Made by a program: the position numbers and the translations under genes. The notes under the pieces are model-generated. The model saw nothing but the letters and a program-made list of their open reading frames with translations, was not told where the DNA came from and made no database searches. From the IMG/VR virus record IMGVR_UViG_3300017958_000044, positions 1 through 28,708 of that record: a stretch of DNA of 28,708 nt. The stretch is one strand, 5' to 3'. This stretch comes from a virus. The first letter of the stretch is position 1. The number at the start of each line of letters is the position of its first letter. This document shows, piece by piece, positions 1,757-9,213 of the stretch.

Positions 1757-2084
1757 TCAGCACCTAAGGTTAGCGGGCCAGATTGTAATACCGCTGTGGA
1801 AAACCCGGCGAAAAGTAACCGGACACGTACACATCAAGCCACTCCCTTTGGAGTTAAGGATTGGTGTAGGTTGAATGCTGACAATCGCAAACACAGATAC
1901 TCCTAAAAACCGTGTGCTAGGAACGAAGTAGCGGGTAATACATCAAGTGTATGATATAATACACTTAGTGTATGATGTCGACGCAGGTAGGGAAAGGTCA
2001 GAGCCCATGGAGTTGTGTATAAACTAAACACCTGTTTCCATAGTCTCGGCTGGGGCGAACTCACATGAAGCGAGAAATTTTTTT
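1757..2084 (+). ncRNA. Candidate structured noncoding RNA, ends at a T-run
   Basis: About 330 bases without a credible ORF but dense with complementary pairs. TCAGCACCT (1757-1765) pairs with AGG (1868-1870) and TGCTGA (1876-1881) and encloses three arms: AGCGG/CCGCT (1772-1776/1791-1795), CCGG/CCGG (1805-1808/1819-1822), and ACAC/GTGT (1829-1832/1864-1867) capped by ACTCC-CTTT-GGAGT (1841-1854). A second domain has ACATC/GATGT (1940-1944/1974-1978) around an 8-bp stem (1945-1952/1959-1966). A third has ATGGA/TCCAT (2007-2011/2037-2041). TCTCG/CGAGA (2044-2048/2071-2075) is followed by seven Ts (2078-2084), which look like a terminator. I do not recognise the family. Pairings were found by eye, without energies or alignment. 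Confidence 0.45.
2044..2084 (+). terminator. Possible intrinsic terminator of the structured RNA
   Basis: TCTCG at 2044-2048 pairs with CGAGA at 2071-2075 and is followed by AA and seven Ts (2078-2084). The stem is short and the loop of 22 bases is large for a classical terminator, so the call is tentative. It marks the likely 3' end of the preceding structured region or of the gp46 transcript. Confidence 0.35.
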
Positions 2085-2259: not shown

Positions 2260-3018
2260 GTGAAAGTATTTGATGTTGTCAATGAGGGAAAAGTTGAAGA
2301 AGGTCCTCTTGATTATGTAAAAAGAGCATTTGGTAGTAAAACTGCTGCTACTAAGATTGACATGGGTCAAGAAACAAAGAGATTAGCCAACGATTTTAAA
2401 GCATTTTATAAAAATACTCCTGATGGTGTTCCTACTACTGCATTATTGTTAAAGTTTCTTCAGGATGCTGGGTTGCCAATCGGATCTGAAAAAGAAATAA
2501 TTGCAGCGATGAGAAAAAATCCCAGCATGGCAAGAAAAATTAAAGGTGCAGCAAAAAGCACTGCTGGTGTTGCAGGAAAAGTTGCAAAAGGTGCTGCTGG
2601 CGCAGTTGCTAAGGGCGCACAAAAAATTGGTCAAGCAGTTAAGGGACCTGCTCCGATAAAACCAAAAGACGGCGAAACTGTAATGACAGCAGGAATGTAC
2701 GAATCATTAATGGAAGCAGAACTTGCACCTAGCGACATCACTGGTATAATTCAACATTTTGTAAAAAAAGGGTTACAGGCTAAAGGTGCTGATGTTAAAA
2801 GATCAAAATATGCGGCTCCGGCACAGCAAGAGCCAGCAGGAATAGTGCAGAAAGCACAAAGTGCTACAGGCGGAACTGCTCCTGCTAGTAAGGCACCAAG
2901 CGGAGAAGAACCAGCACAACAGCCTAAGTTATCAAAAGCAGGACAAGTAGTAGTAAGTGCATTTAAAAAGTTGCCAGCAGCAGAAAAGCAAACTGTTTTA
3001 GGAATGTTAAGTTCTTAA
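2260..3018 (+). CDS. Ala/Lys-rich protein, histone-H1-like middle, unknown function
   Basis: This 252-aa ORF starts at GTG with a well-placed AGGAG seven bases upstream and a late promoter just before it, so it is probably a late product. The N-terminal 90 residues look helical and globular. Residues about 92-136 form a low-complexity Ala/Gly/Lys stretch with repeats such as KGAAKSTAGVAGKVAKGAAG, much like the tail of histone H1 or other DNA-compacting proteins. Residues about 180-225 are Pro/Gln/Ala-rich, and a short helix (LPAAEKQTVLGML) closes the protein. There is no signal peptide. It may be a DNA-associated internal head protein or another virion component; the composition supports this but proves nothing. 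Its stop overlaps the stop of the opposing gp51-like gene. Confidence 0.75.
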   Translation: MKVFDVVNEGKVEEGPLDYVKRAFGSKTAATKIDMGQETKRLANDFKAFYKNTPDGVPTTALLLKFLQDAGLPIGSEKEIIAAMRKNPSMARKIKGAAKSTAGVAGKVAKGAAGAVAKGAQKIGQAVKGPAPIKPKDGETVMTAGMYESLMEAELAPSDITGIIQHFVKKGLQAKGADVKRSKYAAPAQQEPAGIVQKAQSATGGTAPASKAPSGEEPAQQPKLSKAGQVVVSAFKKLPAAEKQTVLGMLSS

Positions 3019-3238: not shown

Positions 3239-4102
3239 TTATGCGAAAAAATTTGCTTGGTCAAACATAATAGGTACTTCGTAACTTTCAGGAGCACCTT
3301 TTTCTATATCTTCAGGATCTGACATTACCTTCATTGGTGGAATGTTAAATTTTGATTTTTCGTTTTCAATTTGACTAGAAACAAGATTATAAAAAGTTCT
3401 ATCAGCATTTTCGATAAATTCTTTTATTTGATGAGGGTTCGTAACTTTGTCCTCTCCTATTTCTATACTCTGTATGCTAGACAACATCATGCCAACAGTT
3501 AACTCTGTAAGTTTTTTGAAACTTTTGTTAAATTGATTTATTTTTTCTTCATCAGATGTATTTTCATCATTTACAATAGCAAATACACGCTGTTCTTCAA
3601 ATGTTTTAATAGCACTTTGTGTAAATTCTTTATAGTTGATTGGACGTATTTTAATCACAAGATCGTCTACATAAACGGTATCATTAAACTCTATGTCGCG
3701 ATATTGCTCTAATAGTGGACGCAAGTCAGTGCTAAAGTCTCTAGTTTCGTTAATACCAGGCACTGACGATGTAATAGTCATATATTCGCCAAATGTAGCA
3801 ATTCGAATAGCAATAAGTGCAGCATCAAGATCTAAACTTGGCATCATCCAAGCATTTTTAATATTAGGAATGCAACTTTGTATAACATCAACAGTTGATT
3901 GACCGTTCATAAGAGCATCAGCAGTTTTAAATGCTAGTTCGTCTTTAGCAGTCATTGAAAATACAGGATACTCATTGTTTTCTGTAGGTTCAAGTGCACC
4001 TTCAGGATAGTACTTTCCTTTACTAGGCAAAGTCATGTATAACTTAGGTTGTCTAAAATATTTCTTTAAAGGGTTAGCACCCGGTGCAGTAATTTCTGGC
4101 AT
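3239..4102 (-). CDS. 26: Baseplate hub subunit gp26
   Basis: A 287-aa minus-strand protein starts with ATG at 4102, preceded by GGAGAAAAAC as ribosome site. It opens MPEITAPGANPLKKYFRQPK and continues with LYMTLPSKGKYYP and FSMTAKDELAFKTADALMNG, the strongly conserved start of the T4 gp26-like baseplate family. T4 gp26 is 208 aa, so this one has a longer C-terminal part, including an acidic helix near residues 150-200. The protein acts in assembly of the central hub of the baseplate. It forms a two-gene minus-strand unit with the gp51-like gene, driven by the minus-strand late box at 4153-4146, while nearly all its neighbours run the other way. This strand switch also occurs in T4. Confidence is high. 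Confidence 0.88.
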   Translation of the reverse strand: MPEITAPGANPLKKYFRQPKLYMTLPSKGKYYPEGALEPTENNEYPVFSMTAKDELAFKTADALMNGQSTVDVIQSCIPNIKNAWMMPSLDLDAALIAIRIATFGEYMTITSSVPGINETRDFSTDLRPLLEQYRDIEFNDTVYVDDLVIKIRPINYKEFTQSAIKTFEEQRVFAIVNDENTSDEEKINQFNKSFKKLTELTVGMMLSSIQSIEIGEDKVTNPHQIKEFIENADRTFYNLVSSQIENEKSKFNIPPMKVMSDPEDIEKGAPESYEVPIMFDQANFFA

Positions 4103-7470: not shown

Positions 7471-9213
7471 ATGGCGTGGAAAAAATATTTTAGCCCGGTA
7501 AAAACAGCAGACAATCCTAACGGAAGTTACTCTCCAATAGGAGGTCCTCGCAGTGGCAACAATCCAGGGCCAGCACGTTCAAACTATTCATCATATTTGC
7601 CAGATGTGTATGTAGGAAGTCCTAATCGTGTTGAACGTTACGGACAATATAATACAATGGACTTAGACTCCGAAGTAAATGCAGCACTTGATATATTAGG
7701 AGAATTTTGTTCACAACTAAACAGACAAAATAATACTCCTTTCTTAATGCAATTTAAAACAAAAGCAACAAATTCAGAAGCAACAATATTACAGCAGTAT
7801 TTGCAACAGTGGTGTAAACTACAAAATTTTGAAACAAAAATGTTTAGAATTTTACGCAATACATTTAAGTATGGCGATCAATTCTTTATAAGAGATCCTG
7901 AAACTAAGAAGTGGTTTCATGTTGACCCAGCAAATGTTAGTAGGATCATAGTTAATGAAAGCGAAGGCAAAAAGCCTGAGCAATACATTATAAAAAACTT
8001 TAATTTAAATTTTGTTGACAATGTAGCAACAACACCGTTTGAAACAAACGGAAATGTAACAGGTGGCGGCAGCGGATATTTAACAGGCGGTGTACGCGGA
8101 ATGGTTGGACAACCGCAACAGTCTATGAGTGGAAATAGATTCATGACTGAAGAACGCGAAGTTGCAATAGACGCAGACCATGTAATACATCTAAGTCTAT
8201 CTGAAGGCTTAGATACGAACTTCCCATTTGGTAATTCACTATTAGAAACAATATTCAAAGTCTACAAGCAGAAAGAACTGCTTGAAGATGCAATTATTAT
8301 CTATCGTGTGCAAAGAGCACCTGAACGCAGAGTGTTTTATGTAGACGTTGGTAATATGCCAAGTCACTTGGCAATGCAGTTTGTCGAAAGGGTAAAGACT
8401 GAGATACATCAGAGACGCATACCGAGTTCGACAGGAGGTGGCACGAATGTCATAGACAGTTCCTACAATCCGTTGAGTATTAACGAGGACTACTTCTTCC
8501 CGCAAACTGCTGAAGGGAGAGGATCAAAAGTTGAAACACTACCAGGCGGAACTAACCTAGGTGAAATTGACGACTTGCGTTATTTCACTAACAAACTAGT
8601 ACGCGGTCTCCGTATCCCTTCATCCTATCTTCCTACTGGAGCAGACGACAGTGCTGCACAGTATAATGACGGCAGAGTTGGTACTGCATATATTCAAGAA
8701 TTAAGATTTAACAACTATTGTGAAAGACTACAAAAACTTCTTATAGAAGAATTTGATAGAGAATTTAAACGTTACATTCTAGAAAAAGGTGTAAATGTTG
8801 ATACATCAATGTTTGATCTTAGTTTTCAACCTCCGCAGAACTTTGCTGCATATAGACAAAGTGAAATTGATAACGCTCGTGTACCAACCTATTCGCAGAT
8901 GAGTGCTATACCTTACATTTCAAATCGCTTTGCAATGAAACGTTTCTTAGGACTAACCGAAGAAGAAATTGCAGAAAACGAACGCATGTGGCGTGAAGAG
9001 AATGATGAAGAATTAAGTGCTTCTCCTAATGATCCTGCAAGTGAAATGCGAGGAGCAGGAGTTAGCGGAGCAGGACTAGAATCAGATCTTGGAAGTATGG
9101 AAGATCAAGTACCTGGTGCTGAACAACCAATAGAAGGCGGAGAAGGCGAAGGTCCTACAACTGCAACTGGAGATGAAGCAGTAGCACCAGCAGCAACTGA
9201 CCAAACAATATAA
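7471..9213 (+). CDS. 20: Portal vertex protein gp20
   Basis: This 580-aa protein (T4 gp20: 524 aa) is a clear gp20. It shows the N-terminal clip-adjacent motif MDLDSEVNAALDILGEFC, the middle KVYKQKELLEDAIIIYRV followed by RAPERRVFYVDVGNMP (residues about 264-297), and the downstream YFTNKLVRGLRIPSSYLPTG, all hallmarks of the marker gene used for marine myovirus diversity. Twelve copies form the ring at the head vertex through which DNA is packaged and to which the tail attaches. The C-terminal 70 residues are Glu/Gly/Ala-rich and look disordered. ATG at 7471 follows the previous stop by three bases, with AGGA inside the end of the upstream gene. The last codons contain the late box for the next gene. 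Confidence 0.97.
   Translation: MAWKKYFSPVKTADNPNGSYSPIGGPRSGNNPGPARSNYSSYLPDVYVGSPNRVERYGQYNTMDLDSEVNAALDILGEFCSQLNRQNNTPFLMQFKTKATNSEATILQQYLQQWCKLQNFETKMFRILRNTFKYGDQFFIRDPETKKWFHVDPANVSRIIVNESEGKKPEQYIIKNFNLNFVDNVATTPFETNGNVTGGGSGYLTGGVRGMVGQPQQSMSGNRFMTEEREVAIDADHVIHLSLSEGLDTNFPFGNSLLETIFKVYKQKELLEDAIIIYRVQRAPERRVFYVDVGNMPSHLAMQFVERVKTEIHQRRIPSSTGGGTNVIDSSYNPLSINEDYFFPQTAEGRGSKVETLPGGTNLGEIDDLRYFTNKLVRGLRIPSSYLPTGADDSAAQYNDGRVGTAYIQELRFNNYCERLQKLLIEEFDREFKRYILEKGVNVDTSMFDLSFQPPQNFAAYRQSEIDNARVPTYSQMSAIPYISNRFAMKRFLGLTEEEIAENERMWREENDEELSASPNDPASEMRGAGVSGAGLESDLGSMEDQVPGAEQPIEGGEGEGPTTATGDEAVAPAATDQTI

Follow-up and report, generated by a model that had tools for sequence, protein, structure and literature searches.

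Sequence comparison indicates that the gap behind an endonuclease gene of an uncultured T4-like phage encodes a real RNA of a new class, which matches no known RNA family searched. Covariation among relatives showed the architecture of this RNA, in which one pseudoknot closes the 5′ domain and a second, where helix X crosses helix Pc, organises the 3′ core. We propose, with a probability of about 0.4, that this is an early-expressed, stand-alone and trans-acting RNA, whose scaffold presents two identical 7-mers to one partner. An earlier note, made from the single sequence, had suggested an unrecognised structured RNA at positions 1757 to 2084, and the comparison of relatives supported this suggestion.

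The window, which is the whole 28,708-nt stretch of DNA that was analysed, contains the following features around the RNA.
1-1101: SbcC/gp46-like gene
1103-1303: small ORF
1322-1756, + strand: SegE-type GIY-YIG endonuclease gene (Pfam PF19835, E 1.3e-35), which adjoins the RNA upstream and lies outside it
1757-2259: gap
2260-3018: ORF without family
3239-4102, other strand: T4 baseplate-type gene
7471-9213: portal gene

The gap was indeed gene-free, as had been claimed, between the GIY-YIG stop at 1756 and the next gene from 2260. No conserved protein frame crosses the RNA, in which single-base indels and hairpins of very different length separate the conserved blocks. The usual order across loci is gp46, GIY-YIG, RNA and a poorly conserved gene, with the baseplate gene farther along, and in many loci the stop of the upstream ORF is only a few bases from the RNA. 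The window GIY-YIG protein belongs to PHROG 447, which is labelled 'NAD synthetase', as are several GenBank phage records; this label is probably a misannotation of a SegE-like endonuclease. The product of 2260-3018 and its counterparts 3′ of the RNA elsewhere are highly divergent, but have a common N-terminal pattern, MKV(Y/F)DIIxE...EAP, which we take to be reminiscent of T4 capsid-targeting sequences, and these proteins are perhaps packaged internal proteins. In two loci (L151 and L166) tandem CAGACACAAAGTCAAACT-like units are located between the GIY-YIG stop and the RNA. ARAGORN found zero tRNA or tmRNA genes in four long T4-like records (G001, G003, G007, G008; L304-L334), which is unusual at their size of 116-182 kb.

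The first relatives were obtained by fetching viral contigs through the GIY-YIG protein and comparing their gaps, which were about 68-85% identical with block-like conservation. Exact-word scans for the core, using TGGGAAAGGTCAGAGCCCAT and then VGGGAAAGGTCAGAGCC, returned 120 and 81 stretches. More than 200 IMG/VR loci carry the RNA, from which 150 distinct sequences were segmented, and each of 14 virus records contains one copy of it. None of three different members, used as blastn queries, detected it in 50,697 phage genomes, and a 19-mer of the core had no exact match in 84,980 bacterial and archaeal species genomes. A 17-mer gave 19 genome matches among prokaryotes, where real copies were present only on two contigs, of 335 and 153 kb, from one Red Sea Neomarinimicrobiota MAG (L302 and L303; PBPT01000016.1 and PBPT01000082.1). 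Because 99 other genomes of this phylum do not contain the RNA, a misplaced or stray phage contig is likelier than a host gene; the two are probably phage contigs binned with the bacterium, and the MAG is a weak lead to the host. Within the collections searched, the RNA was shown to be restricted to viruses.

The structure was evaluated using an alignment of 49 diverse copies (A1), which was scored against an explicit structure containing the pseudoknots, and using an alignment-light arm-swap test, in which the arms of a helix are exchanged among sequences. The parts of the RNA, which in the window is of the first of two types, are listed below, all on the + strand.
1757-2131: minimal extent of the structured RNA, from covariation and conservation
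1757-1886: 5′ domain, with helices K, P1, P2, P3 and P5
1757-1762 with 1876-1881 (loop of P5): pseudoknot helix K; compensatory changes, arm-swap z about -7
1772-1776 with 1791-1795: P1; compensatory changes
1796-1798 and 1805-1808 with 1819-1822 and 1824-1826: P2; compensatory changes, arm-swap z -13.1
about 1829-1867: P3; the drawn register fits only part of the sequences
1869-1873 with 1882-1886: P5; compensatory changes
1899-1903 with 2009-2013: helix X; both-side changes in 5/5 pairs, arm-swap z = -23.6 (0/200 permutations)
1910-1915 with 1928-1934: hairpin Pa; arm-swap z = -16.9, compensatory pairs, near-invariant loop AGGAACGAAG
1937-1975: variable hairpin Pb; top mutual-information pairs 1939-1972 and 1940-1971
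1983-1988 with 2030-2035: helix Pc; UA, CG and GC at 1984-2034
1980-1982 with 2043-2045: Pc2, tentative; neighbours Pc
1990-2006: hairpin Pd, GGG-AAAGGUCAGAG-CCC; invariant, which is no evidence alone since Pd served as a search word, and also exact in 29 first-type loci retrieved via the protein neighbour
2063-2069: direct repeat copy 1, ACATGAA, after invariant CTC
2086-2109: hairpin Pe, between the repeats; 96% of cells paired, mostly one-sided changes to G-U
2125-2131: direct repeat copy 2, ACATGAA, after invariant ATCT
2138-2159, 2187-2208 (GAG...CGA motif) and 2209-2227: three 3′ hairpins; similar hairpins in relatives

The covariation in homologous regions was strong. In A1, 90.8% of cells were paired, as compared to 81.8% in column shuffles, which ignore relatedness, and to 34-38% when the partner strand was slid by 1-3 columns, a control which retains relatedness and still leaves a large gap. 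Double-sided changes were found in 332 cells versus 125 in the shuffles, and the covariation score was 0.302 versus 0.146, with 0/500 shuffles reaching 0.302. The top pairs of an unbiased mutual-information scan were in the same helices, and two crossing helices, K across P5 and X across Pc, covaried on both sides. The length of Pb differs greatly among relatives, with its pairing kept. For P3 the register given by RNAalifold was better supported, with both-side changes; the P3 register and Pc2 are less certain. The Pd loop (1997-2000) is complementary to 2110-2113, and this putative contact Q, invariant in the first type, is an unproven candidate, less certain than the covarying helices. The frequent G-U pairs on the + strand, for example in P1 (GU:24/AU:21) and Pe (UG:25/CG:19), suggest that this is the RNA strand.

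The comparison also corrected the earlier description. A closing pair of 1757-1765 with 1868-1881 had been proposed, whose core, 1757-1762/1876-1881 (UCAGCA/UGCUGA), was paired in 99.7% of cells with compensatory changes in 3/6 pairs; its geometry, on the other hand, is not that of a simple closing stem but of a pseudoknot with the loop of the hairpin 1869-1886. The proposed end at 2084 was too short, as the hairpin at 2086-2109 and the repeat at 2125-2131 rank among the most conserved parts of the molecule. The seven-T run (2078-2084), at which a third stem was thought to end, is not a conserved terminator, and most relatives have a GAGATTAG-like sequence there. The RNA is about 375 nt long, or up to about 470 nt with the three 3′ hairpins, which may extend it to about 2227. 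These hairpins were terminator-like on both strands in a scan, the folding z of 2125-2240 was -3.67, and the segment 2138-2227 is the probable 3′ end of the RNA with its terminator.

The expectation of structure far above chance did not hold thermodynamically. The minimum free energy of 1750-2100 was -85.8, compared to -86.9 ± 5.5 in shuffles (z = +0.19), and the subdomains gave z between -0.4 and -1.5. Since the best nested fold does not surpass shuffled sequence in stability, the case made from the single sequence would fail. However, energy is the wrong test here, because nested folding cannot represent pseudoknots, and the ordinary values are explained by the fact that two covarying pseudoknots are invisible to it. 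Hence, the folding energy does not refute a structured RNA whose native fold is pseudoknotted.

The search of Rfam 15 (4227 covariance models) gave no gathering match in the window, in agreement with the earlier view that no known family could be assigned; the best match was a weak one to mir-137, with 23.5 bits versus a threshold of 56.7. A tRNA, excluded by eye before, was excluded also by ARAGORN and Rfam. A tmRNA was first suspected because the methylophage Melnitz carries one and because GCAAACACAGA resembles a tag start, and was rejected in its one- and two-piece forms, as both programs were negative for the tRNA-like domain and the tag frame. The window RNA resembles the two-piece tmRNA of Melnitz in being a structured RNA of a marine T4-like phage, and the GIY-YIG proteins are related, Melnitz having the closest database relative of the window protein (68.6%); in contrast to the window, no comparable gap follows the GIY-YIG gene in Melnitz, nor in the isolates S-SRM01, phiM12, phiN3, C48C1 and RHph_I1_18. 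Riboswitches and all other Rfam families did not match at the thresholds used, and a hammerhead-like candidate, H2 (GAG...CGAAA), was rejected, as inspection by eye showed no CUGA core and Rfam gave no match for it.

The sequences at 2063-2069 and 2125-2131 are exact 7-nt repeats, which change in step in every lineage. Both copies were located by a parser in 212 loci, in at least 13 types (ACATGAA, ACATGAT, ACATGAG, ACATAAT, ACATAAA, ACGTGAA, GCATGAA, GCATAAA, GTATGAA, ACAGAAA, ACAGGAA, AACTGAA and ATCATCA). Each variable column of copy 1 has the same column of copy 2 as its best mutual-information partner, and the columns covary as equal, not complementary, letters (AA/TT/GG; GG/AA), with no variation in the CUC and AUCU ahead of them. 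In one sister pair (L013/L036) both copies changed from A to G, and in another (L155/L108) from G to A, with the core unchanged in each. The pattern CTC(N7)...TCT(same N7) returned 224 elements with the core plus the second type, while comparable triplets gave 8-33 matches by chance in 3.4 Mb. The repeats are located outside all covarying helices. No consistent complement to them was found within or near the RNA over 25 loci, nor any by mutual information; the neighbouring sequence showed no enrichment of complements and no extra copies or targets, and an orthologous target was absent in 11 phage records, which suggests that the partner must be outside the phage or nonexistent. The complement could be read as a start-codon context (NNNAUGN), which fits most types, but fails for ACGTGAA, ACAGGAA, ACAGAAA, GTATGAA and AACTGAA, and no orthologous gene start was matched. 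The repeats demand an explanation in which equality counts and sequence does not.

Of the GIY-YIG loci, 54 extended far enough downstream for this comparison; 29 had the first-type RNA, and 25 had a different conserved sequence in the same place (L005, L006, L008-L011, L018, L024, L032, L037, L038, L040, L042, L046, L047, L049, L050, L058, L059, L067, L070, L071, L075, L079, L080), with further examples at L366-L438. This distantly related second type is arranged as ...GGUCA loop...ACTC-N7...hairpin...UGAC...ATCT-N7, retaining GGUCA/UGAC at the counterpart of Q, and has no Rfam match. Its N7 is GAATAAT, GAATGAT or AGATGAT in concerted copies, which in L018, L413 and L436 are unequal at the seventh letter. 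A covariance model of the core 1977-2131 (R1), built from first-type sequences only, scored 148.7 bits in the window (E 1e-29), whose sequence was included in the model, and found members outside its training (L309, 1.3e-29; L302, 1.3e-25; L120, 1.8e-22; L205, 3.2e-15). The other strong matches were members only. R1 also matched ten second-type RNAs at the homologous position, weakly (E = 0.004 to 1.1) but with nothing else matched in 516 kb. The 5′ domain of first-type L090, L095, L149 and L181 resembles that of second-type L070. In place of the usual 5′ domain, these four loci and L110 have an unrelated one (GGACACTGTTTGATCG...), similar to the start of L070, which would reflect modular exchange of RNA domains between phages. 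As judged from these sequences, the two types look like one superfamily, in which the 3′ core is conserved and the 5′ domains can be exchanged.

The gene neighbourhood bears on how the RNA may act. Four loci (L120, L205, L260, L269) are without gp46, GIY-YIG and baseplate genes, and have a terminase large subunit gene downstream of the RNA, whose product in L269 is about 42% identical to pelagiphage and other phage versions; L258 resembles them, with no terminase within its available stretch. The presence of the RNA in phages of such a different kind is evidence of horizontal spread, and its occurrence amid quite different genes is consistent with action in trans. Where room allows, a consensus host promoter appears upstream of the RNA, read from the sequence as TTGACA-N17-TATAAT in L193 and as TTGACA-N17-TATACT in L162 and L200. 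In the window no own promoter was evident, and the RNA may share a transcript with gp46 and the GIY-YIG gene; the sequence CATAAATA at 2228-2235, after the three 3′ hairpins, resembles a T4 late promoter. We infer early expression by the host polymerase and a function in trans.

In the proposed mechanism the scaffold would keep both 7-mers open, and both would base-pair in trans with the same single partner, most likely a host RNA, so that the molecule would serve during early infection as a double-seed regulator or decoy, and a change in the partner sequence would carry both seeds along. The covarying structure, the 13 or more concerted types over 212 loci, the single copy and the own promoter in some relatives are in favour of this reading, and trans pairing of both repeats with one partner is the simplest account of their equality. 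It is weakened by the shortness of the repeats, as 7 nt would make a small seed, and by the fact that ordinary seed pairing does not need two identical copies. Equality would be better accounted for by exchange chemistry, in which RNA splicing, circularisation, template jumping or DNA recombination between the copies would remove or copy the hairpin between them, so that only their equality matters and the sequence drifts. Consistent with this somewhat unlikely explanation are the copies that are equal without a complementary partner, the invariant triplet ahead of each, and the quite different 7-mer (GAATAAT) of the second type in the same frame. In DRT2-type RNAs, the template is flanked by short direct repeats. 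The window RNA is similar to the DRT2/DRT10 template ncRNAs in being pseudoknotted and in having a segment flanked by such repeats. A pseudoknotted template RNA is reported to undergo reverse transcription (PMC12039810). Unlike at those loci, a reverse transcriptase (PF00078) was found neither adjoining the RNA nor elsewhere in 18 records, two of them longer than 175 kb, although a host-encoded enzyme is possible. No DNA copy was seen that lacked the hairpin between the repeats. As with group I introns that carry GIY-YIG endonucleases, the RNA has pseudoknots and adjoins a GIY-YIG gene. In group I introns P8 is positioned between P3′ and P7′; the strand order here, X5′-Pa-Pb-Pc5′-Pd-X3′-Pc3′, has its hairpin between Pc5′ and X3′, unlike group I. 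Neither a split gene nor an internal guide for splice-site or repeat sequences was found, the latter over 25 loci and by mutual information, and no group I or II catalytic core was matched in Rfam, for group I even at E = 10.

The remaining explanations fit less well than trans pairing or exchange. It is unlikely that the RNA is a scaffold forming a multimer or RNP like GOLLD, ROOL or OLE, with the repeats as contacts or protein-binding sites. Its size and ornate pseudoknotted fold, and the palindrome GUCGAC (1977-1982), which could serve dimerisation, agree with such a role; like GOLLD and ROOL it is phage-encoded and large, with no established function, and in GOLLD, too, the 3′ part is conserved while the 5′ part diverges (PMC12286853). 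However, the equality of the repeats would be left unexplained, no Rfam model of GOLLD, ROOL or OLE matched in the window, and the RNA differs from GOLLD and ROOL by its length, at most half of theirs, its location away from tRNA genes and its concerted repeats. It is similarly improbable that the RNA works in cis, as a leader or as an antitermination element where early and late gene blocks meet. The RNA is directly ahead of the late module in T4-like phages or of terminase genes in others, and terminator-like hairpins come after it; yet the genes 3′ of it vary and are often on the opposite strand (L088, L115, L131, L148, L151, L211, L284), which makes a purely cis role unlikely. We regard as very improbable that a single endoribonuclease, of phage or host, cuts at both repeats and thereby frees the hairpin segment as a small RNA or decoy. 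The repeats are equal, apparently unpaired and flank a stable hairpin, but close relatives would need a complete change of nuclease specificity (ACATGAA versus GAATAAT), with adjacent GIY-YIG genes in both kinds of loci more than 80% identical to that of the window, and Q appears to tie the segment between the repeats to the core.

Large structured RNAs are seldom found in phages, and the known ones, GOLLD and ROOL, are still without a function. Marine viromes frequently contain the RNA described here, which our searches detected neither in Rfam nor among phage isolates and which strong covariation supports. Few orphan RNAs offer a clue as sharply testable as the 7-nt repeats that change together in this one. 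It is possible, though doubtful, that it founds a new functional kind, namely pseudoknotted machines that operate on two interchangeable copies of a 7-nt word whose sequence is free to vary, by exchange, circularisation, template jumping or programmable targeting, and that exist in at least two RNA subtypes and in two unrelated phage lineages. A new RNA mechanism would be at hand if the repeats prove to be programmable guides or points of exchange; should they instead be seeds that target a host RNA, they would point to a host pathway controlled by many marine phages.
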